Source: SAR86 cluster bacterium SAR86E
GTDB taxonomy: Bacteria; Pseudomonadota; Gammaproteobacteria; Magnimaribacterales; D2472
DNA: 64,000 nucleotides
NCBI GenBank assembly: GCA_000307935.1
Contig: AMWX01000012.1
Coordinates: 62,001 to 126,000, forward strand
Direction: 5' to 3'
Shown here one piece after another: positions 3,416 through 57,594 of the stretch. A program made the translations under genes and the position numbers. Under the pieces are notes generated by a model. It did no database searches, had not been told where the DNA came from, and saw only the letters and a program-made list of their open reading frames with translations. Positions within the stretch are counted from its first letter, which is position 1. Each line of letters opens with the position of its first letter.

Positions 3416-3505
3416 ATATTTTTTTTAAACTTTAGCACCCTTCACATAAATAATAAAAGGGATATATAAATATATAAGAACTAATTAGAATTATTCAAGG
3501 AATTA

Positions 3506-6133: not shown

Positions 6134-6161
6134 AAATTATTCAACTAAAATTTATAAAAAT

Positions 6162-6596: not shown

Positions 6597-6603
6597 AAAA
6601 ATT

Positions 6604-7590
6604 TTATCTCAGCAGCCTATTTAAAATTTCAGGGCCCTGATAAATAAAACTTGTATAAATCTGAACTAAGGAAGCGCCATTATCTAATTTAGAGTTAAAA
6701 CTTTCTTTGCTATCAACGCCACCTACACCAATTTTTAGTAAATCTGGAGCATGTGAATGGGTAAGTTTTAAAAGTTCATTTGATTTTTCTAGCAAAGGTC
6801 TGCCAGATAGACCTCCCTCAAGATTATGCTGACCAGAGTATCTTAAATTATCTTTTTGGACGGTAGTATTGGAGGTAATAACTCCATCAAATTCAAATTT
6901 TTCAATTGCAACTAAAATTTCTGCAATAATCTGCTCATCTTCATCAGGTGAAAGTTTGATAAATATAGGGTTACGATATTTCGCTTCATTACGAGCTAAA
7001 TGCAAAGCTTTAAATAGTGGTAAAAAATTTTCTTTTTGATGTAGCGATCTCAAATTAGGTGTATTGGGTGAAGAAATATTAACTGTAATATAGTCCGCAT
7101 ATGGATATACTTTTTTGAAACATTCTAAGTAATCATCAACTCTTTTTTGACCTTCTGATGTCTTGTTTGCGCCAATATTTATACCCAGAATTCCATTAAA
7201 ATTTCTCAACTTTATCTTTTTAACCAAGTAATCAACTCCCTTATTGTTAAATCCAAGCCTATTAACAATTGCTCCTTGGTTAAGAAAACGAAAGATCCTA
7301 GGCTTTGGGTTGCCTGATTGAGCCACCGGTGTAATTGTTCCCACTTCAATAAAGCCAAAACCCAATGCACCTAAAGAGTTAAAAAAGTCACCATTTTTAT
7401 CAAGGCCTGCTGCAATTCCGAGTTTATTTTTAAAAATTAAACCTTTAAATTCAAATGATTCTGATGCATGTTTATGTGGAAAAACAATACTTGTTAGATG
7501 AAGTTTATATAGGAGATTTAAAGCATTTAAAGCTATAAAGTGAGATATTTCAGGAGGCAGTAATCTTAAGAGCAATAATGCCAATTTCAT
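6604..7590 (-). CDS. pyrD: dihydroorotate dehydrogenase, class 2 (quinone-dependent)
   Basis: The 328-residue protein starts with the short amphipathic membrane-associating helices of class 2 enzymes (LLLLRLLPPEISH). The FMN-binding TIM barrel follows: GLIFKNKLGIAAGLDKNG near residue 60, VGTITP near 85, and NISSPNTPN near 175, which contains the class 2 catalytic serine region. The C-terminal IGVGGVDS phosphate-binding segment is present. It oxidises dihydroorotate to orotate in pyrimidine synthesis and passes electrons to quinone at the inner membrane. It lies 21 bases after galU on the same strand. Confidence 0.95.
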   Translation of the reverse strand: MKLALLLLRLLPPEISHFIALNALNLLYKLHLTSIVFPHKHASESFEFKGLIFKNKLGIAAGLDKNGDFFNSLGALGFGFIEVGTITPVAQSGNPKPRIFRFLNQGAIVNRLGFNNKGVDYLVKKIKLRNFNGILGINIGANKTSEGQKRVDDYLECFKKVYPYADYITVNISSPNTPNLRSLHQKENFLPLFKALHLARNEAKYRNPIFIKLSPDEDEQIIAEILVAIEKFEFDGVITSNTTVQKDNLRYSGQHNLEGGLSGRPLLEKSNELLKLTHSHAPDLLKIGVGGVDSKESFNSKLDNGASLVQIYTSFIYQGPEILNRLLR

Positions 7591-7611
7591 TGGAAAGTAT
7601 CCAAACCCACC

Positions 7612-8445
7612 TTAATCATCAAAAAGTTCTTTAGCAAGATGCTTGATAGCATTTACATAGCCATGCCTAGAGCCACAATCAAACTTTTTGCCCTCGTATA
7701 AATGTCCCACTACTTTCTCATCATTGAGCATCAATTTAATTGCGTCCGTGAGCTGCACTTCACCCCCAACACTTGGTTTGAGGTTTTTTAAATATTTAAA
7801 AATTTTATCAGAAAGAACGTATCTTCCAACCACCGCAAGATTTGAAGGTGGATTGTTTTTTGGTTTTTCCACAATATCATTTAGAAAAAATGAGCTTTTT
7901 GTTGAGGTGGATTCATCAATAGAAATAACGCCATATTTTTCTGTTTCATTTTTCGGAACCTCATTTACACCAATAACGGAGCATTGATGCTCATCATAAG
8001 ATGAGATCAATTGAGATATGCATGATGGATTATTAATAATTAAGTCATCTGCTAAAATTATTGCAAAAGCCTCATTCTTAATTAAATGTTCAGAGTGAAG
8101 AATGGCATCACCAAGTCCATTCTGTGTTTTTTGCCTTACGTAAGTAAATTTAATGTCTCTAAAAATATCTCGATTAATTTTTTTTAAAAAATCATTTTTA
8201 CCACCACTTCGAAGCTTTTCTTCAAGTTCAAAGTTTTGATCAAAATGATCTTCTATTGCCCTTTTTGTGTGACTAGTAATAAATATAATTTCTTTGATGC
8301 CTGCATTAACAGCTTCCTCAACAGCGTATTCTATTAATGGCTTATCAATAATCGGAAGCATTTCTTTTGGAATTGCTTTAGTTGCAGGCAAAAACCGAGT
8401 TCCAAGACCTGCTACAGGAAATACTGCTTTAGTAATTTTTGTCAT
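7612..8445 (-). CDS. galU: UTP-glucose-1-phosphate uridylyltransferase GalU
   Basis: The 277-residue sugar-nucleotidyltransferase begins with the nucleotide-binding signature GLGTRFLPATKAIPKEM (about residues 13-29), followed by DKPLIEYAVEEA. FAIILADDL is in the middle, with a C-terminal VGHLYEGKKFDCGSRHGY segment. Length and motifs are typical of bacterial GalU. It makes UDP-glucose for cell-surface polysaccharides and could feed the sugar operon at 48-57 kb, though that link is inference. It lies 5 bases after glpG and 21 bases before pyrD. Confidence 0.94.
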   Translation of the reverse strand: MTKITKAVFPVAGLGTRFLPATKAIPKEMLPIIDKPLIEYAVEEAVNAGIKEIIFITSHTKRAIEDHFDQNFELEEKLRSGGKNDFLKKINRDIFRDIKFTYVRQKTQNGLGDAILHSEHLIKNEAFAIILADDLIINNPSCISQLISSYDEHQCSVIGVNEVPKNETEKYGVISIDESTSTKSSFFLNDIVEKPKNNPPSNLAVVGRYVLSDKIFKYLKNLKPSVGGEVQLTDAIKLMLNDEKVVGHLYEGKKFDCGSRHGYVNAIKHLAKELFDD

Positions 8446-8450
8446 TCCAG

Positions 8451-9092
8451 TTATACCTTCATAGTGTATTTAGCTATTAAACCAAGCATAAATCCAGCTA
8501 TCATACCAACTAAATGAGCGATATTTGCAACATTTCCGAAGCCAAAAATTTTTAATAGTCCTGTAAAGCCTATTAATAACCAAATGAACATAAAAATATA
8601 TAAGGCATTTGGGAGATCATATCTTTGACCTCTGTTTTCTAAATCCAATATAAAACAGTAGCCCAAAAGACCGTACACAACTCCACTCAACCCCCCAAAG
8701 AGATAGTCGCCTGTAAGGAAATATTGCCCGAGATTACTTGATAGACCAGAAATTAAAAATAAAGTTAGGAAGACTCCTCTTCCATCAATAAGTTCAATCT
8801 TTGATCCCAATATATAAATCCATAAACAATTAAATATTAAATGAGTCAGAGAGAAATGAAGGAAAGTTGGTGTGATAAGGCGCCACCATTCTTGAGAAGA
8901 AAGGAAAGTATTCTGAAATGACGGATAAAAATTTGATCCGCTACTTTTTAAAAAAAGAAATGGCTCCAGCAGACTACTAAAACCAAAATTTGTTAAAAAG
9001 CTTAACATTACAGCTATTGCAATGATTAAAAAGTATGAGGAGTTTGTATTCAAGTTTGATGGTTTTTCTTGGCAGTAATGTCTAAGCTCCAA
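8451..9092 (-). CDS. glpG: rhomboid intramembrane serine protease (GlpG-like)
   Basis: The 213-residue polytopic protein aligns by eye with the membrane domain of GlpG. It has EWWRLITPTFLHFSLTHLIFN (68-88), the serine motif GLSGVVYGLLGY with catalytic Ser136, and catalytic His193 in NIAHLVGM. Six hydrophobic segments can be traced. It lacks the N-terminal cytoplasmic domain of E. coli GlpG, so it is a core-only rhomboid. The best start (ATG at 9092) overlaps the nadK 3' end by 43 bases; no later start keeps the first helix. It should cleave membrane proteins within the bilayer. Substrates are unknown. Confidence 0.87.
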   Translation of the reverse strand: MELRHYCQEKPSNLNTNSSYFLIIAIAVMLSFLTNFGFSSLLEPFLFLKSSGSNFYPSFQNTFLSSQEWWRLITPTFLHFSLTHLIFNCLWIYILGSKIELIDGRGVFLTLFLISGLSSNLGQYFLTGDYLFGGLSGVVYGLLGYCFILDLENRGQRYDLPNALYIFMFIWLLIGFTGLLKIFGFGNVANIAHLVGMIAGFMLGLIAKYTMKV

Positions 9093-9919
9093 CCAAGTTT
9101 TTCTCTACAAGCCTCATAGAAATCATTATCAGAGGGATGAATAATTTTTAACGATGAGTTCTTTTTAGAAATATGAATAGATTTATTGTACTCAACAGGT
9201 ATATCTTTTTGGCCGTCTACACAAACCATTGCATGCTCTAATGGCCCCTCAATTAGTTGAATCTCCAGAGATTTCTTATTTGAAACTATTAAGGGTCTGG
9301 ATGAAAGACTTTGGGACATCATGGGTATAATATTCCAAATATTTAGTTCTGGATGAACTATTGACCCTCCAGCAGACAATGCATATGCAGTTGATCCAGT
9401 TGGAGTGGCAACAATCAATCCATCTGATCGCTGTTCATATACAGTCTTGCCATCTATCAATAATCTATATCTCATAAGCTGGGCATAGGATCCTGAATGA
9501 ATTAATACTTCATTAAGACCAAAAACCTCCTGACCAGAGAATTGAGCTTCAACTAAACTTCTTTCTTCAAGGATATAATTGCCCTTGAAAACATCATTGA
9601 TAACTGATTCAAAGTTTTCAATATTTACATCTGTAAGAAAACCAACAGCGCCCATGTTGATTCCTAAGATTGGAATCTCATTTTCGATAAATTTTCTTGC
9701 CGCACCCAATAAAGTACCGTCTCCACCAAATACTATTATTAAATCAACTGATGTATTAAATTTTTCATGATCGACAATATCTACACCTTCATAGTCAATT
9801 TGATTGGTTGAGTAAATAGTTTTAGTGTTTTTCAGCAAAACACTTAGCAACCCACTAACAACAGAAGATTCACTCGATGAGAGGCTTTTTTTTAAAACAA
9901 TGCCTATATTTTTAAACAT
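9050..9919 (-). CDS. nadK: NAD kinase
   Basis: The 289-residue protein has the NAD kinase signature GGDGTLL at 65-71. NMGAVGFLTD follows near 92, then LNEVLIHSG near 153 and DGLIVATPTGSTAY near 185, which together form the nucleotide-binding and catalytic region of PF01513. It phosphorylates NAD to NADP in the cytoplasm. It is the first gene of the minus-strand block nadK-glpG-galU-pyrD-144aa-topA and diverges from the sirtuin gene across only 42 bases, which must hold both promoters. Confidence 0.95.
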   Translation of the reverse strand: MFKNIGIVLKKSLSSSESSVVSGLLSVLLKNTKTIYSTNQIDYEGVDIVDHEKFNTSVDLIIVFGGDGTLLGAARKFIENEIPILGINMGAVGFLTDVNIENFESVINDVFKGNYILEERSLVEAQFSGQEVFGLNEVLIHSGSYAQLMRYRLLIDGKTVYEQRSDGLIVATPTGSTAYALSAGGSIVHPELNIWNIIPMMSQSLSSRPLIVSNKKSLEIQLIEGPLEHAMVCVDGQKDIPVEYNKSIHISKKNSSLKIIHPSDNDFYEACREKLGWSLDITAKKNHQT

Positions 9920-9961
9920 GCGAGCAATTATACTCTCTGAAGTATATTTAAAAGCAAATTT

Positions 9962-10708
9962 GTGAATACATTTAATGAAATCATTAAGTTAGTAAAAGCG
10001 AGCAAGAGTACCGTAATTTTAACTGGTGCTGGTATAAGTACAGAATCTGGGCTGCCGGATTTTAGAAGTGACAATGGTTTTTGGACTAAAAATAAACCCA
10101 TTCAATTTAATGAGTTTTTGCTAAGCGAAGAAAAGCAAAGATTGTCATGGGAAAGAAATATTGAGCTCCATTCGCTTCTTAAAAACATAGAACCAAACTT
10201 AGGCCATATGTTTGTTGAAAAAATAATTGGTTTGCAAAAGAATAATTTTTTAATCACTCAAAATATCGATGGATTACATCAAAAATCGGGGGTTCCTAAA
10301 AATAAAATTATAGAAATTCATGGAAGTGCTATTAAAGCTGCGTGCTTGGAGTGCGAGGCAAAACAAAATATTTTAGATTTCCATAATGCTATAAAGTTTC
10401 AAGGTCCATTGCCGAAATGCACTGTTTGTGGTGGTGTTGTAAAAGTAGCCACTATATCTTTTGGCCAACCTATGAATGAGATGGACATGATGCATGCCTC
10501 AAAGATTGTTGAAGAAAGCGATTTAATGATTGTGATGGGCTCATCTTTAAAAGTTTTGCCAGCAGGAAAACTTCCTAATTTAGCCATGCAATCTGGCTCA
10601 AAGCTTATTATATTAAATAGAGAAAAAACTCGGTATGACCAGAGTGCAGATATAGTGATTAATGATGAGTTGCAAAATATATGTAGCAAGCTAATCGACG
10701 AACTTTAA
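9962..10708 (+). CDS. cobB: NAD-dependent protein deacylase, sirtuin family (CobB-like)
   Basis: The 248-residue protein has the sirtuin signatures in order: GAGIS at 22-26, LPDFRS at 31-36, TQNIDGLH at 99-106, catalytic His120 in IEIHGS, and zinc cysteine pairs at 128/131 and 153/156. It would remove acyl groups from protein lysines using NAD. The start is GTG at 9962; no ATG occurs before the Rossmann motif. Its 3' end overlaps the convergent alcohol dehydrogenase by 4 bases. It diverges from nadK, an NAD-metabolism neighbour, though this may be chance. Confidence 0.92.
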   Translation: MNTFNEIIKLVKASKSTVILTGAGISTESGLPDFRSDNGFWTKNKPIQFNEFLLSEEKQRLSWERNIELHSLLKNIEPNLGHMFVEKIIGLQKNNFLITQNIDGLHQKSGVPKNKIIEIHGSAIKAACLECEAKQNILDFHNAIKFQGPLPKCTVCGGVVKVATISFGQPMNEMDMMHASKIVEESDLMIVMGSSLKVLPAGKLPNLAMQSGSKLIILNREKTRYDQSADIVINDELQNICSKLIDEL

Positions 10709-34247: not shown

Positions 34248-35036
34248 TCACTTTACGAAAAATATATTTTTAGTTCCATCTGTAATTTCTTCCTCCATAG
34301 ATATACCTTCAGCATCTATGGCGATAAAATTGTATGCTTTTAATAGATTGAAAACTTCCTTATGATTTCTGCTTACCTCTACCATAAGTGCTTTTGTGTT
34401 CCGGAGAACTTGCTTGGCTCCCTTCAAAACTGATAATTCAGCGCCCTCTACATCAATCTTCAAAAAACTTGGATTTACTGAATGCTGCTCACATATGGAA
34501 TCCACTGTTTTTACTTTCACACTTACCCTTGTAATCAAGTTTTTACTATTTTGCTGAGACTCTGACAGACTTTCATTAGATGCGTCGACGAATTCACTCA
34601 CTAAAGAATTTGTAAAACCTCCAAATTTCTCCGTATAGAAATCCATCTCGCCATCTTCATCTGCCATAGCAAATGGAAGAACCTTAGTGGAATCTCTAAC
34701 ATTCTTTTCCAATAAATACCTGCTTTCTATTGTTGGCTCAGCAACGAGAACCTTGCCCTCTGCGCCAACCAAGTCTTCAAATATTTGTGTTAAATAGCCT
34801 ATATGTCCTCCAATTTCTAAGACGCAGTCTCCTTTATTAATTAACTTGCTGAATAATTTCAGCTCAGAAGACTCCCTTTGCGAACCATAAAACCAATATC
34901 CCTTATGAAGCCATGTCAATAAATGTAGTTTTCTCAAAGTGACATCATGCTTCCATCCATATTCAAAATTTAATCCTCTGAGAATTGGAAACACAATCTT
35001 TCTGAGAAGTTTTATATTTGCTAAGTTTTGCTTCAT
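34248..35036 (-). CDS. FkbM-family SAM-dependent methyltransferase
   Basis: The 262-residue protein has the class I methyltransferase SAM-binding motif VLEIGGHIGYLTQ (about residues 76-88, in place of the common VLDVGANIGYYT) and VAEPTIES near 103. It also carries the FkbM hallmark FLKIDVEGAELSVLKGA near 191-207. FkbM proteins O-methylate sugars or polyketides, often on surface glycans. It stands alone between the guaA 3' end and a duplicate of that end, 68 bases after guaA, which suggests arrival on a small integrated element. No partner glycosyltransferase is adjacent. Confidence 0.85.
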   Translation of the reverse strand: MKQNLANIKLLRKIVFPILRGLNFEYGWKHDVTLRKLHLLTWLHKGYWFYGSQRESSELKLFSKLINKGDCVLEIGGHIGYLTQIFEDLVGAEGKVLVAEPTIESRYLLEKNVRDSTKVLPFAMADEDGEMDFYTEKFGGFTNSLVSEFVDASNESLSESQQNSKNLITRVSVKVKTVDSICEQHSVNPSFLKIDVEGAELSVLKGAKQVLRNTKALMVEVSRNHKEVFNLLKAYNFIAIDAEGISMEEEITDGTKNIFFVK

Positions 35037-46837: not shown

Positions 46838-48265
46838 TCAAGAATTATTGAATTCTCTGGCAGTTTTAAATGCTTCAATTGCTCTAAGGCGAGATGTCTT
46901 AAGGTCTAGCATTGGTGCAGGATAGTCACTAGAGGAAAAGAGATCCTGTTTAGGCTGATGAATATTTTTTAGGGAGACATCTTTTAATTCTGGGATAAAT
47001 TTTTTAATAAAATCTCCATTGGGATCAAAGTTTTGAGACTGAGTTATTGGATTAAATATTCTGAAATAAGGTGCAGCATCTGTTCCAGTAGATGCGCTCC
47101 ACTGCCAGCCGCCGTTGTTTGAGGAAAAGTCACCATCGATTAAATTTTTCATAAAAAACTCTTCTCCAAGCCTCCAATCATGAAGCATGTTTTTAGTGAA
47201 GAACATTGCAACCACCATTCTTAATCGATTATGCATCCATCCTTCTGTAAGCATTTGTCTAATACCCGCATCCACTATAGGAAAGCCAGTTCTACCCTCA
47301 TAAAAAGCTTTTAATTCATTATCGCAATGCCTCCATTTAATGGAATCAGTGTAGTCTTGAAACGGTTTATTAAGACTAACTTTTGGAAAAGAGTGCATGA
47401 TATTTCTGTAGAACTCCCTCCAGACAATTTCATCTATCCACTTACAAATACCCTTATTTCCTGAAGTTAATTCAAAGTTATTTAGCTTCATGCCTTCTAA
47501 AATGCATCTTCTTGGTGAAAGAATACCTAATGCAAGATATGGTGAGATTCTGCTTGTGCCATCTAAAATTGGGGAGTTTCTTGATTGATTATAATCCCTA
47601 GATTTCAATTCAAGAAAATTAGATAATCTGGCTGCCGCAGCATCTTCACCGGCAGGCCAAAGATCAATATCAACTTTGTGGATTTTTGAATATTGTATTT
47701 TTGATGATTCGTTATTTAGGGAGATTGATTTTTTTAAGGCAGATGGCTTACGAATCTCAAGAAAGTTCATATCAAAATTTTCAATCCATCTCCTTTTGAA
47801 TGGAGTAAATACAGAAAAGGGTTTTCCTTGACCAGTTCTCAGAATCCCAGGCTCATATATAACTTGATCATCAAATCTAGAAACGTGAATATTGCTATTA
47901 TTCAATATTTGAGCAGATAGGTCATCTCTTTTTGATTCATTGATTCCAAATTCATTATTCCAAAAGACTTGGTTAATATTATTGGTTACAGAAAAATTGT
48001 TTAAATCTTTTGGCAGAGATTTAAAGGAGTTTGTATTAAGTGTAATTAATGGGATATTTAAATTAGATAATGATTTCTCTAAGATTTCTAAATTCTTAAT
48101 AAGAAAGCTGAGTTTAACATTTGATTCATTGTGATCATTCCATTGATTCTCAGAAAATATGTATATACCAGCAACCTCGTCGCATTTATCAATGGCATCG
48201 AGAAGCGCAGGATTATCATCAAGCCTTAAATCAGTTCTAAACCAAATTAATCCTTTCATAGGCAT
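46838..48265 (-). CDS. phrB: deoxyribodipyrimidine photolyase
   Basis: The 475-residue protein has an N-terminal Rossmann-like antenna domain (GLIWFRTDLRLDDNPALLDA) and the C-terminal FAD domain, with WREFYRNIMH near 285, GRTGFPIVDAGIRQMLTEGWMHNRLRMV near 325 and NNGGWQWSASTGTDAAPYFRIFNP near 390. These are class I CPD photolyase features. It repairs UV dimers with blue light, as expected in a surface-ocean organism. It begins 9 bases after the KdsB-like gene and is probably the last gene of the sugar operon transcript. Confidence 0.94.
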   Translation of the reverse strand: MPMKGLIWFRTDLRLDDNPALLDAIDKCDEVAGIYIFSENQWNDHNESNVKLSFLIKNLEILEKSLSNLNIPLITLNTNSFKSLPKDLNNFSVTNNINQVFWNNEFGINESKRDDLSAQILNNSNIHVSRFDDQVIYEPGILRTGQGKPFSVFTPFKRRWIENFDMNFLEIRKPSALKKSISLNNESSKIQYSKIHKVDIDLWPAGEDAAAARLSNFLELKSRDYNQSRNSPILDGTSRISPYLALGILSPRRCILEGMKLNNFELTSGNKGICKWIDEIVWREFYRNIMHSFPKVSLNKPFQDYTDSIKWRHCDNELKAFYEGRTGFPIVDAGIRQMLTEGWMHNRLRMVVAMFFTKNMLHDWRLGEEFFMKNLIDGDFSSNNGGWQWSASTGTDAAPYFRIFNPITQSQNFDPNGDFIKKFIPELKDVSLKNIHQPKQDLFSSSDYPAPMLDLKTSRLRAIEAFKTAREFNNS

Positions 48266-48274
48266 AGTTTCACT

Positions 48275-49033
48275 TTAAATATATTTATTTTTATACAGGC
48301 GAACAAAATGATCATTTTTCATTACTCTCTCAAGCTTAATTATATCTTCAGGATTATCTACACCAAGAATTGGAGATGAAGATAAAACGCCTTGAATGGA
48401 GAAATCATTTTCTAAGAATCGCATCATATCTATTGATTCAACTTCTTCTAGCGGGGTTGGTGATAGATCAGCATAGTACAACAATGCACTATTCGTAAAA
48501 CCTATCATCCCCAACTGTCTAAATCCGCTTAGACAATTATTAGGCACATGAGTTCTAGAAAAAAATTTAATGTTTAAATCTTTTTTTACAACTGCTTTGA
48601 CGACATTTGGATTCTCTAAATCATTTTTTGAAATCGGGAATAATAAATTTACTGCCTCATACTCTATACCTGTGAATGCATTTTTTAAATTTATAATGTC
48701 ATCTGGGTGAATTTGCGGTTCATCGCCCTGAAGCAAAAGAATGAAATCAAAAAAATCTCCTTCACGAGATAGAATATCTAAAGTTTCTTTTGCTCTGTCA
48801 GTAGCCCTTTGATGTATATGACTAGTTAAAACAGACGGTATATCATGCAAATTAGCCCAAGCAATGATCTCTTGGTCTGGTGTTGCGATCACTAGATTAT
48901 CACAGGCACCAGAAATAAGAGCTCTTTCATAGCAATGAGCAAGCATTGGAATCTCTAGTATTTTTTTAAGGGGCTTACCGGGAAAACGAGATGATGCCAT
49001 TCTTGCTGGTATAACGCCTAGGGTTCTTTTCAT
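48275..49033 (-). CDS. KdsB-like cytidylyltransferase (substrate probably not plain Kdo)
   Basis: The 252-residue protein has the CMP-sugar-acid synthetase core: VIPARMASSRFPGKPL at residues 7-22, LQGDEP at 101-106 and GVDNPEDI near the end. KdsB activates Kdo with CTP. Two features differ from canonical KdsB: the HQSGTER/HxSGTDR loop reads HQRATDR at 74-80, and the middle carries a FSRTHVPNN segment in place of FSRATIPW. It lies at the end of a contiguous operon whose other enzymes include an HpaI aldolase and a SIS isomerase, so I suspect a related 2-keto-3-deoxy sugar acid. It could still be the genome's only KdsB. Confidence 0.78.
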   Translation of the reverse strand: MKRTLGVIPARMASSRFPGKPLKKILEIPMLAHCYERALISGACDNLVIATPDQEIIAWANLHDIPSVLTSHIHQRATDRAKETLDILSREGDFFDFILLLQGDEPQIHPDDIINLKNAFTGIEYEAVNLLFPISKNDLENPNVVKAVVKKDLNIKFFSRTHVPNNCLSGFRQLGMIGFTNSALLYYADLSPTPLEEVESIDMMRFLENDFSIQGVLSSSPILGVDNPEDIIKLERVMKNDHFVRLYKNKYI

Positions 49034-49038
49034 TTTAA

Positions 49039-49758
49039 TTAGAAAGGCAATCTTGCGTTAACATCTAACATTCTAATATCAACGCTAAATGCAATCATAT
49101 TATACCCCTTGCTTTCTAGCACTTTTATTTCCTCTTTCTTAGGCTCAACAAGGTGATATCCACATCTTATACCTTCTTCTTTAGCTGCTGACAATATGAT
49201 TTTTTCTGCATTATTAAATTCATCTGTATCAAATTTTCCAGGACTATTTAATGATGCTGACAGATCATAAGGTCCTATAAAAAAACCATTTATATCTTTA
49301 GAAAAAATTTCTTTACAGTTTTTTAATCCTTTTTTAGATTCAATCTGAGCATATATTTCTACTTCGTTAACTTTACTAGTAATATAATCTTTCTTTGCGA
49401 TGCTCTCACCATAACCTTGTGCTCTTGCGAGTCCCATGCCTCTCTTGCCATTTGGTGGATAGCGGCAGGCAGAGATTACACCTTCTATCTGATGGAGTGT
49501 TTCAACCATGGGGGCTAAGATACCTTTAGCTCCGGCATCTAGGACTCTTTTAATTTGTGTGGCATCATGCCCAGACAATCTTACGAAAGGCTTAGACCCT
49601 GCCAAGTCTATAACTCTAATTAATTGTTCAGCCTGATTTATATTGATACAGCTATGTTCAAGATCAATAACAATCCAGTCATACCCAGCATTAGCAAAAA
49701 TTTCTGCTATAGATTCATTGGGAAGACTTTGCCATGTTCCAATAGAAAGTTTATTCAT
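49039..49758 (-). CDS. HpcH/HpaI-family pyruvate aldolase
   Basis: The 239-residue TIM-barrel protein has DWIVIDLEHS near residues 27-36, RYPPNGKRGMG near 117, metal ligands in QIES near 142 and GPYDLSASL near 170. These are hallmarks of class II 2-keto-3-deoxy sugar-acid aldolases such as GarL and HpaI. The enzymes cleave, or form, 2-keto-3-deoxy acids from pyruvate and an aldehyde. In this operon it could build the sugar-acid carbon skeleton for the adjacent KdsB-like enzyme, 5 bases downstream. A catabolic role is also possible. Confidence 0.85.
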   Translation of the reverse strand: MNKLSIGTWQSLPNESIAEIFANAGYDWIVIDLEHSCININQAEQLIRVIDLAGSKPFVRLSGHDATQIKRVLDAGAKGILAPMVETLHQIEGVISACRYPPNGKRGMGLARAQGYGESIAKKDYITSKVNEVEIYAQIESKKGLKNCKEIFSKDINGFFIGPYDLSASLNSPGKFDTDEFNNAEKIILSAAKEEGIRCGYHLVEPKKEEIKVLESKGYNMIAFSVDIRMLDVNARLPF

Positions 49759-49770
49759 AAAATCAATTAA

Positions 49771-50736
49771 TTATGTGATTTCAATATTATCATCTAACCC
49801 ATTAATTGCTGCCATCCCCATTGAGCTAATACCTTCATTTGTCAGACTAGAGCGATGAGATGTACCAAAAAAGTTTGTTAGTTTAAATAAAGGATTATTC
49901 ATTGCAGGCTCCTCTTTGTAAACATCAAATCCAGCAAAACTTAAAGGTTGTTGCGAAAGGAATTTAAAAAGATCCTTTTCATTAATAATACCCCCTCTTG
50001 CTGTATTAATTATGCATACGTCAGGCTTCAAATAATCTAATTCTTTTTTAGATATGATATTTTGCGTGGATGCTATTAATGGAAGATGAATACTTAAAAT
50101 ACTGGATTCTTTTAATAGTTGCTCTAAAGAAGTCTGAACTATCGAGCCCGCTTCATAATTAAGATCTTTTGCAAGGTTGACCATTTCGCTGTCTAAAAAA
50201 ACTTTTTCATCATAAAATAAGATTCTGCAATTAAATGGTTGCAAGAGTGCAGCTAACTTTTGCCCAATATTTCCAAATCCAAGTAGTCCAACAGTTTTTC
50301 CAAAAAGCTCTGAGCCCTTTTCCTGTGACCAATTTCCATTAATAATATCTAAATTATTATCTTTAATTTTTTTTAGCCCCAAAAGCGTTAGAGTTAATGC
50401 AAGCTCTGCTACACTTTGTTTATTTACACCTGGTGTAAATCCTAGTCTTATATTTCTTTTTTTAAGTAATTTTAAATCAATATTATTTAAGCCAACCCCG
50501 TACTTGCTTATAACTTGCAACAATGGGAGTTTTTCCAGAATAGGCTCAGATAAATCTTCGATGCCAATTATTGCTTTTGTTGCTGGCATTAAAAACTCAA
50601 CCAGCTGATCTCCAGCAAGAGTTTTATCTGTCTCATTCAAGATCACCGATGAATATTTCCTTTTAAGAGATGCTACTAGATTTTCATTTCTTGAAAAAGA
50701 TCTCGAAGCAACTGCAATCGTATCAGATGTATTCAA
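49771..50736 (-). CDS. D-2-hydroxyacid dehydrogenase family protein
   Basis: The 321-residue protein has the substrate-binding halves and NAD domain of the D-isomer 2-hydroxyacid dehydrogenases: GLLGFGNIGQKLA near 148, NTARGGIINEKDL near 245 (catalytic Arg), a DVYKEEPAMNNPLF Glu segment near 276, and the catalytic His in GTSHRS near 297. The His follows GTS rather than the common TPH. It interconverts a 2-keto and a 2-hydroxy acid. It sits between the phosphatase (1-base gap) and the HpaI aldolase, so it may act on the same acid. The exact substrate is unknown. Confidence 0.84.
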   Translation of the reverse strand: MNTSDTIAVASRSFSRNENLVASLKRKYSSVILNETDKTLAGDQLVEFLMPATKAIIGIEDLSEPILEKLPLLQVISKYGVGLNNIDLKLLKKRNIRLGFTPGVNKQSVAELALTLTLLGLKKIKDNNLDIINGNWSQEKGSELFGKTVGLLGFGNIGQKLAALLQPFNCRILFYDEKVFLDSEMVNLAKDLNYEAGSIVQTSLEQLLKESSILSIHLPLIASTQNIISKKELDYLKPDVCIINTARGGIINEKDLFKFLSQQPLSFAGFDVYKEEPAMNNPLFKLTNFFGTSHRSSLTNEGISSMGMAAINGLDDNIEIT

Positions 50737-50737
50737 A

Positions 50738-51481
50738 CTACTGCTCTATTGTATTATTTGAAAATCTGGCATCTACCCTGAAGTCTACTTGAATATTTTC
50801 AAGAGATACCTCCCCTCCAGCTGCGCTAACAATTGCTGCGCCAGCAGCCACATCCCATAGAAAAATACCATTTTCTTTATAAGTCTCTGCTTTACCAGAG
50901 GCAACATAACATGCAGCCATGGCGGCAGAACCAATCATTCTTACTTTTTTCCATGCTTGAAAATCACATATCATTTCACTAAATTCATTATCAGAATAGT
51001 TTGATTTGGCTGGAATTCCCGTTACAAGTGTTGACTCTTTCTTTAATGCCAGTGGCGATACGTTTATCTCCTTATCATTAATATAGGCCTTAGATTCAAT
51101 GTGTCCGTAATAAAGCTCTTCATGATTAAAATCATATATGACTCCCAACAAGGGATTGCTCTTGTTCATCAAAGCTATTGATACACAGCTAATCGGGATA
51201 TCTCTTAAAAAATTTGACGTTCCATCAAGAGGGTCCACGACCCAAAAATATCCATCTAGATCATTATTTGAGCCTAACTCTTCACCAAGTATTGCATAGG
51301 AGCTTTTTGAGTTTAAGTACTCTTTTATAAGTTTTTCAGTATCAATATCCAGTTGAAGCTTTAAATCTCTTCCTTCATTATTTAAAACTTCTAGATTTTT
51401 TCCTTTTGCTTTTAACAAGAAGTCTCCTGCTAGCAAAGCAGCAGATTTTGCAATAGTTAGGCATTGCTCTAAATCAAGCAT
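50738..51481 (-). CDS. inositol monophosphatase-family phosphatase
   Basis: The 247-residue protein has the lithium-sensitive phosphatase motifs: ILGEELG near residue 69, the metal-binding DPLDGTSNFL near 85-94, and WDVAAGAAIVSAAGGEV near 205. It removes a phosphate from a sugar, inositol or nucleotide monophosphate. It overlaps the SIS-domain gene by 8 bases. In this operon a dephosphorylation step before the KdsB-like activation is plausible, analogous to KdsC in the Kdo pathway. SuhB, CysQ or another family role is possible. Confidence 0.86.
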   Translation of the reverse strand: MLDLEQCLTIAKSAALLAGDFLLKAKGKNLEVLNNEGRDLKLQLDIDTEKLIKEYLNSKSSYAILGEELGSNNDLDGYFWVVDPLDGTSNFLRDIPISCVSIALMNKSNPLLGVIYDFNHEELYYGHIESKAYINDKEINVSPLALKKESTLVTGIPAKSNYSDNEFSEMICDFQAWKKVRMIGSAAMAACYVASGKAETYKENGIFLWDVAAGAAIVSAAGGEVSLENIQVDFRVDARFSNNTIEQ

Positions 51482-52052
51482 TCAAAAATTTTGCTCTAAA
51501 ATATGATCCGACCAAACCACAAACTACCATATGCAAATCTTCTGCTGGTCCATATTCTCCGACTTTTGTTGGTACGTGAATATTAAGATCACAATTTTCT
51601 TTTAAATATCCGCCATCAAAAGCAGTCATCCCGACCACAAAAATTTCATGCTTTTTTGCGTATTCTATTGCACATATTAAATTTTTAGAATTCCCTGAAG
51701 CAGAAATACAGACAATGGTATCTCCAGATTTTGCTAATGTTTGAAGTTGTTGCAAAAAAATATTTTCATACCCATCATCATTTGCAATTGCGGTAATTAC
51801 CGCTTGATTATCACACAAACTTATAGCTCTGAAAGGTTTTTCAAACTGACGGCTTCCAAGAGATACATCATTAACAAAATGAGTTGCAGTAGATGCACTG
51901 CCGCCATTTCCTAGAAAAAAAGTTGTGCTGCCAGATTCTCTGGACTCAAGCAGCAAATCAGCAAACTTACCAATTGCCTCCCTATCCAGTTTTGAGATGA
52001 GATTGGTTAGATATTCTAGATACTCATTAGAATATGCAGAGGATTTGTTCAT
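51474..52052 (-). CDS. SIS-domain sugar-phosphate isomerase (GmhA-like)
   Basis: The 192-residue single SIS domain carries GNGGSAS at residues 48-54 and ISASGNS at 116-122, the phosphosugar-binding loops of GmhA-like proteins. Of the residues GmhA uses for zinc and catalysis, His58 is retained, but the Glu three to four residues later reads Asp62. The C-terminal region reads EDLHMVVCG with Gly179 where GmhA has a zinc His and Glu171 where it has Gln. It is thus unlikely to be a canonical sedoheptulose 7-phosphate isomerase. It is cotranscribed with the phosphatase and lies 11 bases after the Gfo/Idh gene. Confidence 0.82.
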   Translation of the reverse strand: MNKSSAYSNEYLEYLTNLISKLDREAIGKFADLLLESRESGSTTFFLGNGGSASTATHFVNDVSLGSRQFEKPFRAISLCDNQAVITAIANDDGYENIFLQQLQTLAKSGDTIVCISASGNSKNLICAIEYAKKHEIFVVGMTAFDGGYLKENCDLNIHVPTKVGEYGPAEDLHMVVCGLVGSYFRAKFLNA

Positions 52053-52063
52053 GATCAGTCCGT

Positions 52064-53086
52064 TTAATTATAGTATTTCTTTTTCCATTCAGGATCAGCT
52101 TTATATATAGCCTCAACCAGTTTCATTGTTTCAATAGCATCCTCGATGCTTCCTCTTTTAATTTCTGAATTATTAGTTAAACAATCATAAAAATATTGAA
52201 TCTCATTGTCCCATGATACATCCTCGTTGTATTTAATGGTCGACTCCATGGGCATTCCTTTATCTTTTTCTGGATTTGAAGTAATTGTTTTTAATGTTTC
52301 ATCTCCATAGCTTTTAGACCCTGTAAGCAAGCCACCTAGAACCAATGATCCTTTTTGAAGTGTAATTTCTAAATTAAATATGTGTCTCCATTGAGTAGCA
52401 GAAGAATGAAGCTGTGCAACGACACCATCTTCCGATTTCATTAAAACGTATGCATTGTCCTCTACATCAAAATTCCAAAATGCGTTGTCAATAAAAGAAA
52501 AAATTTTAGAAAAATTTTTGCCTGATAAGTATTTCATCAAATCAAGCATATGAATTCCTTGATCAAGCAGGATGCCTCCTCCTGATTCTTCTCTTTTAGT
52601 TCTCCAATCTGTTTGGTTAAAACTAATGATTTGTGACTTGCCATAAACCCCTTTCATATTGATAATTTTTCCTAAGGTATTATTTTGAATTATTCTTTTT
52701 GCCTCCTCAACAGAGAGATGAAATCGATGATTGAATCCATACATTAACTTTAAATTAGGAAATTTCTTATGTATTTTTTGAACAATTTGAAGCTCTTTAA
52801 GCGTCCTTGCTGGAGGCTTTTCACAAAAGACATGAAGTCCTTTTTCAAGGCTTAGCGCGACTGCCTCTGCTGCAAACTTATTGGGTAAGCTGATGAAAAT
52901 GATATCTAACTCAGTCTTAGAAATAAGATCTTGATAGCTATCAAAAATCGCTATGCCTGATGGAATGACCTTTTGAGCTTCTAGATTTTTTTCTGAAATA
53001 GCGGTGACTTTAAATGTTGTATTTTTGATTATTGATGTGTACCTTGTTTTACCAACAACGCCATAACCTGCAATTCCAACTTTCAT
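52064..53086 (-). CDS. Gfo/Idh/MocA-family oxidoreductase
   Basis: The protein is 340 residues from the ATG at 53086; the preceding codon is GTG overlapping the upstream stop and may be a secondary start. It has the Rossmann motif GIAGYGVVGKTRY at the N-terminus, the family signature CEKPPA near 93 and GGGILLDQGIHMLDL near 175. It should oxidise or reduce a sugar, often a nucleotide sugar or inositol, with NAD(P). It is the junction between the PQQ dehydrogenase and the SIS/phosphatase genes. The precise reaction is unknown. Confidence 0.86.
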   Translation of the reverse strand: MKVGIAGYGVVGKTRYTSIIKNTTFKVTAISEKNLEAQKVIPSGIAIFDSYQDLISKTELDIIFISLPNKFAAEAVALSLEKGLHVFCEKPPARTLKELQIVQKIHKKFPNLKLMYGFNHRFHLSVEEAKRIIQNNTLGKIINMKGVYGKSQIISFNQTDWRTKREESGGGILLDQGIHMLDLMKYLSGKNFSKIFSFIDNAFWNFDVEDNAYVLMKSEDGVVAQLHSSATQWRHIFNLEITLQKGSLVLGGLLTGSKSYGDETLKTITSNPEKDKGMPMESTIKYNEDVSWDNEIQYFYDCLTNNSEIKRGSIEDAIETMKLVEAIYKADPEWKKKYYN

Positions 53087-53088
53087 CA

Positions 53089-54207
53089 CTATTGCGAGTA
53101 GGTTACTCTAAGAATCACATTTGCTTTATCATCTGATATCAGCATACTTCCGTCATTTAAAACAAGAGGGGCTGAGGGTCTGCCAATTACCTTGTCATCC
53201 TGCAACCATCCTGTAATAAAATTGTGAGAGCCAATTACATTGCCGCTAGTATCTAGATCAACTCTTACAATCTTATACCCAACTTTTTCGCTTCTATTCC
53301 AAGAGCCATGCAAAGCAATAAAGAGATTATTTTTCATTGTTTCTGGAAACATCTCACCATCATAGAAATCTATACCAGTGGGAGCTACATGTGCACCAAG
53401 TTCATATATAGGATCAACAAATGTATATCCGGAATTAAGAGGGCCAAACTCTGGATCAAGCACATTGGATGCATGTTTGTAAGGATATCCAAAAAACTGA
53501 CCTTCTTGATCTAATCTATTCAGCTCACAGGATGGCGAGTCATCTCCTAGCCAATCCCTTCCATTATCAGTAAAAAAAAGTTTATTGCTTAATGGATGAA
53601 AATCAAATCCCACACTATTTCTAACACCTTTCGCAACAAATTCTATTTGACTATCTTTAAGTCTCAGGATGCTAGCATATTGTGGATTATCAGATAAACA
53701 AATATTGCATGGAGCTCCAACATTAAAATAAAGATTTCCATCCCTATCATGCATCAACCATTTCCAACCATGCCACTCATCATCAGGCAAATTTTCAACC
53801 ACGAGTATTTTTTGCGGGGAATCTGAAGAAGTTGAGTAACTTTGGATCCAATCTTCTATATTCTCAATTTTCCATATCTTGCTTATTTCAGAAAAATATA
53901 AATCTCCGTTAAATAAACTAAGTCCTGTTGAAAAAGTTAAATCATTGAGAATCAGTATTTTTTGATCAGCTTGGCCATTGTTATCAGTATCTTTTAAAGC
54001 AATTATTTGACCGCCTCTTTCTGCAACAAAAATAATGCCGTTAGAGCCTTCAACCATTTGCCTGGGGGAATCTAAACCCTCTGCAAATATTGAGATAGCA
54101 AATCCTTCACTGAGACTTAATTTATTCACATCAATAGCAAAAACAGGGTATGTGACTAAAACTATTAACAACGACGATAAATATTTTTTAATGTTAACTA
54201 TTTTCAT
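53089..54207 (-). CDS. PQQ-dependent sugar dehydrogenase-like beta-propeller (exported)
   Basis: The 372-residue protein has a signal peptide (IKKYLSSLLIVLVTYPVFA) and a beta-propeller. Its motifs are GLDSPRQMV, VRNSVGFDFHPLSNKLFFTDNGRD, and HVAPTGIDFYDGEMFP near 285 followed by ALHGSWNR. This is the soluble glucose/sorbosone dehydrogenase family. It would oxidise a sugar in the periplasm if PQQ is available. The exact substrate and redox partner are unknown. It overlaps the CapD-like gene by 14 bases and the Gfo/Idh gene by a few, so it is translated with the sugar operon, an odd place for an exported sugar oxidase. Confidence 0.86.
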   Translation of the reverse strand: MKIVNIKKYLSSLLIVLVTYPVFAIDVNKLSLSEGFAISIFAEGLDSPRQMVEGSNGIIFVAERGGQIIALKDTDNNGQADQKILILNDLTFSTGLSLFNGDLYFSEISKIWKIENIEDWIQSYSTSSDSPQKILVVENLPDDEWHGWKWLMHDRDGNLYFNVGAPCNICLSDNPQYASILRLKDSQIEFVAKGVRNSVGFDFHPLSNKLFFTDNGRDWLGDDSPSCELNRLDQEGQFFGYPYKHASNVLDPEFGPLNSGYTFVDPIYELGAHVAPTGIDFYDGEMFPETMKNNLFIALHGSWNRSEKVGYKIVRVDLDTSGNVIGSHNFITGWLQDDKVIGRPSAPLVLNDGSMLISDDKANVILRVTYSQ

Positions 54208-56101
54208 GAAAACCCTCTATGTGTATTTCTAATAAATCAATAATATCCTCTACATTATTTAATGAAATTGCATTCGACAATGAATCTAGTATTTCATTCA
54301 TTTGCTTGAGATCAGGAAAATTTTCTAAGGACTTAAAAATTTTTTTGTTTTGAGTAGGCATCTCTTCGCCAGAGATTAACAATTCTTCATACATTTTTTC
54401 ACCAGGCCTCAGTCCAATTTCAATAATTTCAATGCCCTCATCATCATGAGCAAGGGCAATATTTCTTCCTGAAAGATGAATTAGTTTTTGAGCAAGATCA
54501 TAAATCTTCATTTGTTCCCCCATATCAAGAATAAAAACCTCTCCACCGGTTGATAACTGGGAAGCTTGAAGAACAAGATTTGAGGCTTCAGGTATGGTCA
54601 TGAAATACCTTGTAACATCTCTATGCGTCACTGTAACTGGGCCACCCTGTGCAATTTGCTCAAGGAATAAAGGTATTACAGAACCAGATGAATTTAATAC
54701 ATTTCCAAATCTAACCATCGAAAATTTTGTAGAAGAAGATGAGGCATTCATTGATTGAATTACCATCTCAGCCATTCTTTTGGATGCTCCCATAACATTT
54801 GTTGGTCTGACAGCCTTGTCGGTTGAAATCATGACAAAAGATTTTGCTTTGCACTCTATTGCTAAGGAAGCAAGGTGATAGGTTCCAAGAATGTTATTTT
54901 CACATGCTTTAGTAATATTATTTATGTTCTCAACCAATGGAACATGTTTATAAGCAGCTGCATGGTAAATGCTATCTAGATTATATTTAATAAAAATTGA
55001 CTCTAGATTAGTCCTATCTTTTATATCAGCAAGTAAAGGCACTATTTCGGTTGTTAATTCTTTAGTTTCTTTTATTGCTATGCATTCTCGCTCAATTGTA
55101 AATAAATTAAACTCAGATAAATCCAACAAAATTAGGGTTTTTGGATTACTATCAAGCAACTGCCTTGAAATTTCAGACCCAATAGATCCACCGGCACCAG
55201 ATATGAGTATGTTGCTACCTTGCAAACTGCCAAGTACATTTTTTTCCACTCTTGCACGAGGCAGCAGATCATCAATAGATAGATTTTGAATATCAGTCAT
55301 TTTCTTTTGATCTGAAATTAATTCATGAAAAGATGGAACCGTCCTAACTGCTACTCTAATCTTCTCTAAGGAATGAATGATTTCTCTTCTTTTTTTGGTA
55401 TCTATACTGGGTATCGCAAGTAATACCTCCAAATTATGAAATTTATTTTTTAAAGCAATCAACTGCTTCATAGAACTAAGTATAGGAATATTATTTATTT
55501 GAGTATCTTTTAGATTTTTAGAATTATCAAAAAATGCAATTAATTTTCTTGACGGATCAAGCATTAAAGATTGAAATAATTCATTACCGGATGCTCCCGC
55601 CCCGTAGATTATGACTGGCTTGGCGTCTAAATTTATATTTCTTGGATATAAAAGATATTTTGCGATATCTCTAGATATATTCAGAAAAGCGTAAAAAACT
55701 GCCGATAACAAAAAACCTTGGAGTATCGCAATAGATAGAAAAGATGTGGAAATAATCGAAAACTGAAAAATATGCAGTAGCGACCATGAAAAACCAAAAA
55801 TCATAGACCCTGATATTGCCAATAGAATTGAATCTTTGGAGTCAAAAAATTTTATTAAAGATTTATAAAATCCAAGTAAATAAAGATAAGATATAGACAA
55901 AGAAATAGGAATTATAAATGACCTCCATTCTTTATAAAAAATACCTATTATGCTCTCAGAAAACTCTGAAGCAATAAATGTAGCCATTGGCGGACCAAAT
56001 ACAATCCAGCACACCAAAGCAATAATAAGATCATTGAGCAATACGATAAAAATCTTCTGCTTCCTTGAAAAGCTTTGAAAGAGTAAAGTCATCTTATTCA
56101 T
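54194..56101 (-). CDS. membrane nucleotide-sugar 4,6-dehydratase, WbpM/CapD family
   Basis: The 635-residue protein has four N-terminal membrane segments and a CoA-binding-like region (YGAGASGNELFQSL near 167). A C-terminal SDR follows, beginning NILISGAGGSIGSEISRQLL near 299. The usual YxxxK is MGASK in MISTDKAVRPTNVMGASKR, the Met-for-Tyr substitution seen in WbpM. The family converts UDP-GlcNAc to a 4-keto-6-deoxy sugar, the first step to deoxyaminohexoses in surface glycans. It overlaps the epimerase gene by 4 bases. Confidence 0.93.
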   Translation of the reverse strand: MNKMTLLFQSFSRKQKIFIVLLNDLIIALVCWIVFGPPMATFIASEFSESIIGIFYKEWRSFIIPISLSISYLYLLGFYKSLIKFFDSKDSILLAISGSMIFGFSWSLLHIFQFSIISTSFLSIAILQGFLLSAVFYAFLNISRDIAKYLLYPRNINLDAKPVIIYGAGASGNELFQSLMLDPSRKLIAFFDNSKNLKDTQINNIPILSSMKQLIALKNKFHNLEVLLAIPSIDTKKRREIIHSLEKIRVAVRTVPSFHELISDQKKMTDIQNLSIDDLLPRARVEKNVLGSLQGSNILISGAGGSIGSEISRQLLDSNPKTLILLDLSEFNLFTIERECIAIKETKELTTEIVPLLADIKDRTNLESIFIKYNLDSIYHAAAYKHVPLVENINNITKACENNILGTYHLASLAIECKAKSFVMISTDKAVRPTNVMGASKRMAEMVIQSMNASSSSTKFSMVRFGNVLNSSGSVIPLFLEQIAQGGPVTVTHRDVTRYFMTIPEASNLVLQASQLSTGGEVFILDMGEQMKIYDLAQKLIHLSGRNIALAHDDEGIEIIEIGLRPGEKMYEELLISGEEMPTQNKKIFKSLENFPDLKQMNEILDSLSNAISLNNVEDIIDLLEIHIEGFHENS

Positions 56102-56982
56102 TTGAACTTATTTGATATGCATTCTGATGTTGTATTAAGTTTAACACTCAATTCAGCTGTAATCTTGGAGTTATCAACCTGAAAATTACCATAAAGCTTG
56201 AGCAAAATATTTCTAAAAATTGGAATTGTTTTAAAGAAAAAAAATATAATATTAGGAATTAAAAATATTTTTTTTGACCCACCTGCGCGGAGCAATTCAT
56301 TCAGTGAGATATGTCCATGATCAGCTAAATTATAAATAGAATTATGACTAATTAATTGTGGTTTCTGTAATATTTTCAGAGTCATTTCTTCAATATTTTC
56401 AGATGATATAAAACTTCTTTTATTTTTATTTCCTTGAACAAATGACACTAAGGGGATTTTCTTGCTGAGTGAGATTAATTTACCAATATTTGATTTTGTT
56501 GAATAATTTAAAACTGGAGGCAATCTTAAGATCAAAAAATTTAGCTTGCTCTCTCTTGATCTATCCATCACTAAATCCTCACAAAGTTTTTTTGCCCTTC
56601 CATATGAGCAATTTGGTATGGCGGGAGAGAGTTCATCTAGTATTGAATATTTATATGAGTTATCTCCATAAACTTTTGTCGTGCTATAAAAAATTAAGTT
56701 AGTGCAATTCATAGTTGGGAGGCAATCAAGCACCGCATTAGTAAGTTCAATTTCCTTGAAAATATTTTCCTCTGTAATATTTTCATTTAAAGATGCTAAA
56801 TGAAAAAAAATATCTATTTTTCTTGATATCTTTTGTTTAACGAGATCATTGAATGAAAAAGAGGAATAATTATCTGGGACAAGCGATGATGAGATTCTTA
56901 TAACATCATGGCCTTGAGCTTCAATAAATTTTGTGAGGTCTTTACCCAAAGAACCACTTGCACCAGATACAGCAATAATCAT
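56098..56982 (-). CDS. NAD-dependent epimerase/dehydratase (extended SDR)
   Basis: The 294-residue protein begins with the Rossmann motif VSGASGSLGKDL and has the active-site YGRAK (YxxxK) in CSYGRAKKLCEDL near residue 135. A Thr/Ser-Thr upstream (YSTTKVYG) supplies the SDR triad. It should reduce or epimerise a nucleotide sugar, acting with the following CapD-like dehydratase, in whose gene its stop overlaps (ATGA). It is the first gene of the minus-strand sugar operon and is divergent from the phosphoglycosyl transferase across 39 bases. Confidence 0.86.
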   Translation of the reverse strand: MIIAVSGASGSLGKDLTKFIEAQGHDVIRISSSLVPDNYSSFSFNDLVKQKISRKIDIFFHLASLNENITEENIFKEIELTNAVLDCLPTMNCTNLIFYSTTKVYGDNSYKYSILDELSPAIPNCSYGRAKKLCEDLVMDRSRESKLNFLILRLPPVLNYSTKSNIGKLISLSKKIPLVSFVQGNKNKRSFISSENIEEMTLKILQKPQLISHNSIYNLADHGHISLNELLRAGGSKKIFLIPNIIFFFFKTIPIFRNILLKLYGNFQVDNSKITAELSVKLNTTSECISNKFK

Positions 56983-57021
56983 AATAATAATTTAAAATTA
57001 TATTTTAACTGCAAGCACATC

Positions 57022-57594
57022 ATGATAGTAGCCCTAAGAAATACCATTTGCATTTTTGGATTAATACTTATATCTCCAATTTTGCTAATTTCAGCAATTT
57101 TTATAATTATAGAAGATGGATATCCACCTTTTTTTATACAAGAAAGATTAGGTATAAATGAAAAAATTTTTTCTATGTATAAAATTAGAACAATGAAAAA
57201 ACAGACGCCTCAGGATGGAACTCATAATGTAAATGAAAAATATCTCTTATCAGTAGGTAAACTAATTCGGAAACTAAAGTTAGATGAATTTCCTCAAATA
57301 GTAAATGTGATAAGAGGTGATATTAATTTAATAGGTCCTCGTCCAGGACTCATTATGCAGGAAGCACTTAAAGCAGAAAGAGTTAAGAAATATATTTATT
57401 CTGTAAAACCTGGGATCACTGGATTGGCGCAATCAACAGGGTTTGATATGAGTGATCCTAAAAAATTAGCTCAAGTAGATGAAATTTACATTAAAAACAA
57501 ATCACCCAAGCTTATGATATTAATTTTTATGGCAACATTTTTTAAAATGCCGCGTGAGATTTTAAAAAGACAACTTAAACTCGATGAGATATGA
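57022..57594 (+). CDS. monotopic phosphoglycosyl transferase (bacterial sugar transferase)
   Basis: The protein is 190 residues from the ATG at 57022; an earlier ATG at 56908 would run through the divergent epimerase gene. It has one N-terminal hydrophobic re-entrant helix (CIFGLILISPILLIS). The signature follows: PPFFIQERLG, MYKIRTM near 54 and DEFPQIVNVIRGDINLIGPRPGL near 94. These are the PglC/WcaJ-type features of PF02397. It moves a sugar phosphate from a nucleotide sugar to undecaprenyl phosphate, starting a surface glycan. The dehydratase at 54194 would supply the sugar. It overlaps the next gene by 4 bases. Confidence 0.91.
   Translation: MIVALRNTICIFGLILISPILLISAIFIIIEDGYPPFFIQERLGINEKIFSMYKIRTMKKQTPQDGTHNVNEKYLLSVGKLIRKLKLDEFPQIVNVIRGDINLIGPRPGLIMQEALKAERVKKYIYSVKPGITGLAQSTGFDMSDPKKLAQVDEIYIKNKSPKLMILIFMATFFKMPREILKRQLKLDEI

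Follow-up and report, generated by a model that had tools for sequence, protein, structure and literature searches.

A presence/absence cassette in a SAR86 surface-glycan slot that probably makes and activates a non-Kdo sugar acid with an HpaI-type aldolase and a KdsB-like synthetase

We analyzed a window of 64,000 nucleotides (positions 62,001 to 126,000 of contig AMWX01000012.1, GenBank assembly GCA_000307935.1) from SAR86 cluster bacterium SAR86E, whose analyzed genome comprises 1.4 Mb in 13 contigs and is 87.8% complete. Nine open reading frames (ORFs) were confirmed on the minus strand between positions 48275 and 56982, and an earlier sequence-only reading had taken them for one operon that makes a sugar acid other than 3-deoxy-D-manno-octulosonic acid (Kdo) and activates it with cytidine monophosphate (CMP). 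Between neighboring ORFs there are overlaps of 14, 8, 4, and 1 bases and gaps of 1, 5, 11, and 12 bases, and the same-strand run extends past position 48275 to a photolyase gene 9 bases beyond. Promoter and terminator scans gave results no better than those for shuffles. Pfam and NCBIfam models bore out the protein families named earlier, with matches to CTP_transf_3/KdsB-like (cytT), HpcH_HpaI (hpaI), 2-Hacid_dh (hadh), Inositol_P (imp), GmhA-like SIS_2 (sis), GFO_IDH_MocA (gfo), GSDH (pqq; weak, 39 bits), PglF/WbpM-like Polysacc_synt_2 (capD), and Epimerase (epi) (Table 1). The upstream start of the divergent initiating transferase may overlap epi.

Table 1. Genes of the nine-gene run and its two flanks (positions in the window)
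Gene	Assigned product	Position	Strand	Place in the slot
cytT	KdsB-like CMP-ulosonate synthetase, altered sugar site	48275..49033	-	Cassette core
hpaI	HpcH/HpaI class II pyruvate-type aldolase, glycan-associated clade	49039..49758	-	Cassette core
hadh	D-2-hydroxyacid dehydrogenase, phosphoglycerate dehydrogenase/glyoxylate-reductase-like	49771..50736	-	Cassette core
imp	Inositol-monophosphatase-family phosphatase	50738..51481	-	Standing resident
sis	GmhA-like phosphosugar isomerase	51474..52052	-	Cassette member
gfo	Gfo/Idh/MocA oxidoreductase	52064..53089	-	Cassette member
pqq	Exported sorbosone-dehydrogenase-like propeller	53089..54207	-	Standing resident, outside cassette
capD	PglF/WbpM-like UDP-GlcNAc 4,6-dehydratase (PglF/WlaL match, 1.6e-76)	54194..56101	-	Separate priming cassette
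epi	Short-chain dehydrogenase/reductase (SDR) epimerase/reductase; probable 4-keto reductase acting with capD	56098..56982	-	Separate priming cassette
	Divergent initiating sugar-1-phosphate transferase (Bac_transf, PglC/WcaJ type)	56908..57594	+	Priming cassette
	Photolyase	46838..48265	-	Standing resident; marks cassette edge

The nearest database relatives of the locus are SAR86 single-cell genomes, seven of which share both the gene order and the slot. The aldolase is carried by 23 of 199 sampled genomes of the order, in six genera, and by 12 of 25 in the same genus; these counts are lower bounds because most of the sampled genomes are incomplete. The slot is also shared by cassettes in other genera of the family, where it lies between a DUF3604/propeller side and a photolyase/aldehyde dehydrogenase side. 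Cassette-free genomes of the same genus (G781, G868, and G878; G and L numbers denote genomes and loci) and of the family (G283 and G749) keep the pyrroloquinoline quinone (PQQ)-like gene, the inositol monophosphatase (IMPase) gene, the photolyase, and the aldehyde dehydrogenase, but their slot holds none of gfo, sis, hadh, hpaI, and cytT. The genes epi, capD, and Bac_transf are present without the cassette in L168 and absent with it in L150 to L154, and the PQQ-like gene is kept where both are absent (e.g., L167). A Glycos_transf_4 transferase takes the place of these three genes in L150, and likewise in others by sequence resemblance; in L169 they are replaced by DegT/PglC/PglD-type genes, with one capD kept.

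Based on this independent presence and absence, the run consists of three independent blocks. The first joins epi and capD to the divergent initiating transferase and is a cassette of its own for priming with a UDP-6-deoxy-N-acetylhexosamine, and the second, the PQQ-like gene and the IMPase, is made up of standing residents of the slot; two further IMPase genes lie elsewhere in the genome. The third, gfo-sis plus hadh-hpaI-cytT, is a presence/absence cassette whose constant part inside SAR86 is cytT, hpaI, and hadh. The operon of the sequence-only reading therefore stands as nine tightly packed ORFs but not as one pathway, and the packing here is no evidence of one; its gene order does recur in the seven single-cell genomes, but with capD, epi, and the transferase in only five. 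We also observed that the slot exchanges its initiating transferase, Bac_transf for Glycos_transf_4, among close SAR86 relatives (window 56098 to 57594; L150, L167, L168, and L169), as expected for a surface-glycan variable region.

CytT scored below the cut-offs of two kdsB equivalog models (124.6 bits versus 155.2 and 143.5 bits versus 281) and above that of one broad KdsB subfamily model (199.9 versus 193). The residues that bind cytidine triphosphate (CTP) and two metals in KdsB, Lys19 and two Asp (PMC3149649), are invariant in cytT as K20, D104, and D226. Its predicted structure (predicted local distance difference test score, 92) best matches 1gqc, the KpsU CMP-Kdo complex, with a template modeling (TM) score of 0.89. 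At the published KdsB substrate motif RHIGVYAYR (PMC7717453) the window enzyme has RQLGMIGFT, and at LEQLR it has IDMMR, so that Q173 replaces His, I177 replaces Tyr, and D202-M203 replace Glu-Gln. Gln stands for His in all hpaI-linked cytidylyltransferases except one, a distant second KdsB-like enzyme near the G382 locus (L100, 14095 to 14910) that keeps His and is encoded 1.3 kb from hpaI; none of the canonical KdsB set of the phylum search has Gln there. Among phage-contig proteins, a few distant ones share the change of His to Gln yet keep Tyr. In the cytT tree, in which L112 to L114 count among the SAR86 cassette enzymes, a branch with support of 99 separates the hpaI-linked cytTs and two others from the canonical KdsBs, including SAR86's own. 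With the fold and the CTP and metal residues kept and the letters of the sugar site changed, sequence and structural model both suggest that cytT carries out KdsB chemistry, probably on a sugar other than Kdo.

The Kdo-site residues are kept in KpsU-type Klebsiella, Streptomyces, and Fusobacterium KdsBs, and KdsB-like genes on plasmids of these genera were ruled out as module members by their canonical motif. The Streptomyces plasmid gene at H59 lies with kdsA and a SIS gene. In L178 (10569 to 12744), from a plasmid of the Gram-positive Streptomyces, kdsA, SIS, and kdsB genes lie in a row, with the canonical Kdo-site motif.

The canonical Kdo genes lie elsewhere in the SAR86 genome: a kdsB above its cut-off between lpxK and murB (contig C1:108443), the single kdsA between pyrG and eno (C8:159489), kdsD (C8:125821), and waaA (C12:217446). 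The KdsB-like gene of the window is a second, divergent copy, 31% identical in its product to the genome's own KdsB, and with the canonical set present it is not needed for Kdo.

The aldolase hpaI reached 128 to 151 bits against NCBI equivalogs of catabolic HpaI, RhmA, and GarL enzymes, for which the cut-offs are 369 to 441. Residues H35, R60, D74, E140, and D165 are invariant among 41 aligned sequences, and we take H35, R60, E140, and D165 to be the catalytic His and Arg and the metal-binding Glu and Asp, respectively. The linked aldolases, with one exception given below, fall within a glycan-context clade (support, 95) that includes unlinked members from phage contigs and polysaccharide clusters. 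All 23 aldolases of the clade, versus none of the 18 others, carry His at position 202, and the catalytic residues are kept in both groups. A GPYDL motif was dropped as a signature because many unlinked aldolases have it.

Sis scored 105 bits against the GmhA equivalog (cut-off, 209), and its closest solved relatives are phosphoheptose isomerases. Thr replaces the Asp of the GmhA motif GNGGSAAD and the conserved His is kept; with this active-site Asp replaced, the likeness to phosphoheptose isomerases does not fix the chain length. Hadh has its closest relatives among phosphoglycerate dehydrogenases and glyoxylate reductases, within the glyoxylate/hydroxypyruvate/2-ketogluconate reductase group, and accompanies hpaI almost everywhere. 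It is the weak point of the proposed route, since it may supply or remove a 2-keto acid, which would allow hydroxypyruvate as a substrate and a non-3-deoxy product.

We searched the class with the aldolase profile and the phylum with the cytT profile and read the regions around the hits. Three genomes outside the class (G485, G382, and G426) hold cytT, gfo, sis, hadh, and hpaI together, in shuffled orders and at 23 to 42% identity, with imp also in the cassette of G485 and G426 and not in that of G382; partial sets occur in G323, G338, G477, G520, and G166. In the phylum sample, hpaI lies near six of the seven evaluable top-scoring non-own cytTs versus none of the eight next-ranked KdsBs (Fisher P, ∼0.001). 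In both G323 and G338, genes for an SDR and a haloacid dehalogenase (HAD) phosphatase accompany cytT, hpaI, and hadh, the same set as in G849 of the SAR86 order. In such type II loci a 6-phosphogluconolactonase/NagB-fold protein replaces sis and gfo (G323, G016, and G849, but none was seen in G338), and cytT is next to the gene of a TIGR04326 surface carbohydrate protein in G338, G505, and G849. A row of genes on an Acuticoccus plasmid encodes the aldolase, a cytidylyltransferase of NeuA type, the hydroxyacid dehydrogenase, a HAD hydrolase, and an oxidoreductase dependent on NAD(P); by this partner swap, two families of CMP-ulosonate synthetase serve the same aldolase family. The HpaI aldolase, the hydroxyacid dehydrogenase, and a cytidylyltransferase are the near-constant core of these clusters, whose other carriers are Pseudomonadota unrelated to SAR86.

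In G166, hadh, gfo, hpaI, and cytT are accompanied by a TIGR04425 AroB-related cyclase and an SDR. We noted that this cyclase clusters with an SDR, a Gfo protein, a hydroxyacid dehydrogenase, and a KdsB-like enzyme in two loci (L102, 8728 to 15910; L061 of G166, 3033 to 10214), which suggests a further, uncharacterized route to an activated acid.

Some cassette genes appear to move with phages. A search of a phage database with the aldolase matched only distant Staphylococcus records. Among viral sequences, a viral-classed contig with a GIY-YIG-like gene (L118, IMGVR_UViG_3300010883_024701) has a NagB/6-phosphogluconolactonase-fold gene, hpaI, and cytT in a row at 344 to 2587. Two further viral contigs (L124, 5246 to 6792; L125, 6001 to 8757) have a SIS isomerase gene by a KdsB-like gene, a few kilobases from phage head-tail-type genes, and the L124 enzyme shows a third sugar-site motif, ESCDMNR.

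A candidate transferase for the CMP-sugar acid is an ELM1-family (PF06258) protein encoded directly downstream of cytT in nine SAR86 loci (e.g., L010, 11489 to 12496; L150, 7727 to 8713). It is predicted to be GT-B-like, with a TM score of ∼0.5 that speaks for the general fold only. No ELM1 gene follows cytT in the window, and of the genome's two other ELM1-family genes the closer is 34% identical. Remote from the other glycan genes, an FkbM-type methyltransferase-like ORF lies between a nitroreductase-like gene and guaA at window positions 34248 to 35036.

Based on the directly observed gene content, conservation, catalytic residues, altered sugar site, and separate canonical Kdo pathway, we infer, with a probability of roughly 0.7, that a non-Kdo 2-ulosonic acid destined for a surface glycan is made and activated by the products of gfo, sis, hadh, hpaI, and cytT, probably together with that of imp. 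The product is likely a 3-deoxy acid. Substrates, step order, the nature of the sugar, and its transferase are proposals, as is the following route. Sis would convert a ketose phosphate to an aldose phosphate; Gfo and the hydroxyacid dehydrogenase would adjust the stereochemistry or oxidation state of this aldose phosphate or else provide the 2-keto acid; HpaI would join pyruvate, the most likely nucleophile, to an aldehyde; imp would remove the phosphate; and cytT would use CTP to link CMP to the anomeric hydroxyl at C2. In its simplest form the route would run from sis through hpaI and imp to cytT. The activated acid would then be added to the lipid-carrier glycan begun by the neighboring initiating transferase.

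This order parallels the Kdo pathway (KdsD, KdsA, KdsC, and KdsB), in which an isomerase, carbon-carbon bond formation to a 2-keto acid, a phosphatase, and CMP activation follow one another, and cytT shares the fold and catalytic residues of KdsB. Unlike that pathway, the cassette has an HpaI-type aldolase instead of the phosphoenolpyruvate (PEP)-dependent KdsA, a GmhA-like SIS protein without CBS domains, an IMPase in place of KdsC, two extra oxidoreductases, and replaced Kdo-site residues. Nonulosonic acid pathways (NeuB/NeuA, legionaminic, and pseudaminic acid) likewise deliver CMP-ulosonic acids to surface glycans, and on the Acuticoccus plasmid their NeuA-type enzyme replaces cytT, but the cassette lacks the UDP-GlcNAc epimerase/aminotransferase set, and no NeuB-type synthase was found among the operon ORFs. 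The fold and catalytic residues of hpaI are those of the class II pyruvate aldolases HpaI/HpcH, RhmA/YfaU, and GarL, from which it differs in its scores, its own His202 clade, and its biosynthetic genomic context. The adjoining capD and epi match a PglF/WbpM plus reductase priming cassette, next to a PglC/WcaJ-type initiating transferase, but are independent of the ulosonic acid cassette. To our knowledge, the known Kdo and nonulosonic acid pathways all build the acid by a PEP-dependent synthase. In the open-access literature we found no HpaI aldolase with a CMP-Kdo synthetase or an ulosonic acid pathway, which is weak evidence of absence as subscription papers lay outside this scope.

Several observations weigh against this interpretation. 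Sis is missing in L011/L158, L151, and L152, and L155 lacks gfo as well as sis; the aldolase of L061 (G166) lies outside the glycan-context clade; and G396 has dehydrogenases, the TIGR04425 cyclase, an SDR, sis, and cytT with no hpaI in the stretch read. The window holds no dedicated glycosyltransferase, the TIGR04326 protein was not found in this SAR86 genome by a search that had no positive control, and the genome is only 87.8% complete.

A less likely alternative is a non-3-deoxy 2-ulosonic acid, formed by HpaI acting on hydroxypyruvate that hadh supplies or balances, or by direct oxidation of an aldose phosphate to a 2-ketoaldonate with Gfo/SDR, a lactonase, and the dehydrogenase. The near-constant company and reductase grouping of hadh are consistent with it, as are the 6-phosphogluconolactonase/NagB-fold protein of the type II loci and of G268 and the presence of a "hydroxyketoacid aldolase" among the closest solved structures to hpaI. 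Loci of the window type, however, have no lactonase, and aldolase scores fail to separate pyruvate users from hydroxypyruvate users. The "full route" to a CMP-3-deoxy sugar acid claimed by the sequence-only reading was drawn by inference, and the role of hadh leaves room for hydroxypyruvate as the nucleophile. Its central idea stands: the KdsB-like enzyme comes in addition to canonical kdsB, kdsA, kdsD, and waaA, the altered motif in hpaI-linked enzymes points to a non-Kdo acid, and hpaI and cytT are neighbors across SAR86 and in unrelated genomes. Neither of the genomic results that it named as refuting it, a lack of any other kdsB or a separation of hpaI from cytT in relatives, was obtained.

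We consider it improbable that the cassette is a second route to Kdo, in which sis would yield arabinose 5-phosphate, HpaI would add pyruvate, and cytT would make CMP-Kdo for a capsule-type polymer. The parallel order of steps and some cytT relatives above an NCBI KdsB subfamily cut-off would fit, but the Kdo-site residues replaced in hpaI-linked enzymes are kept in capsule KpsU-type and Gram-positive KdsBs, no kpsC/kpsS-type neighbors were seen, and the canonical pathway is already in the genome. Slightly less probable still is that the aldolase and dehydrogenase are catabolic and share only a slot with a cytidylyltransferase that activates an acid from elsewhere. Most relatives of HpaI are catabolic, and G268 and G157 have gfo-hadh-6-phosphogluconolactonase-hpaI-sis with no cytT in the stretch read, but the linkage recurs in unrelated genomes and O-antigen-like clusters, both enzymes fall in separate clades, and the partner swap to a NeuA-type enzyme speaks against coincidence of place. 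Very improbable, and largely refuted by L150 to L154, L167, and L168, is a single nine-gene pathway in which capD, epi, and the PQQ-like enzyme modify the same sugar, despite the tight packing on a single strand.

Beyond a non-Kdo ulosonic acid in SAR86, the data raise a broader proposal that we hold tentatively, at a little short of even odds: a widespread CMP-sugar-acid route in which an HpaI-family aldolase using pyruvate or hydroxypyruvate stands in for KdsA or NeuB, two synthetase families are interchangeable, the surface sugar is undescribed, and phages carry parts. If true, this recurring cassette, built on an aldolase, would offer a further way into the ulosonic acid class of sugars and would explain many genes annotated as an extra "kdsB." Gln and Asp-Met in the sugar site of the synthetase and His202 in the aldolase provide signatures with which to search for it. 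The cassette of SAR86, a group abundant in the ocean and so far uncultured, sits in a swappable surface-glycan slot, where variation is expected under phage pressure.

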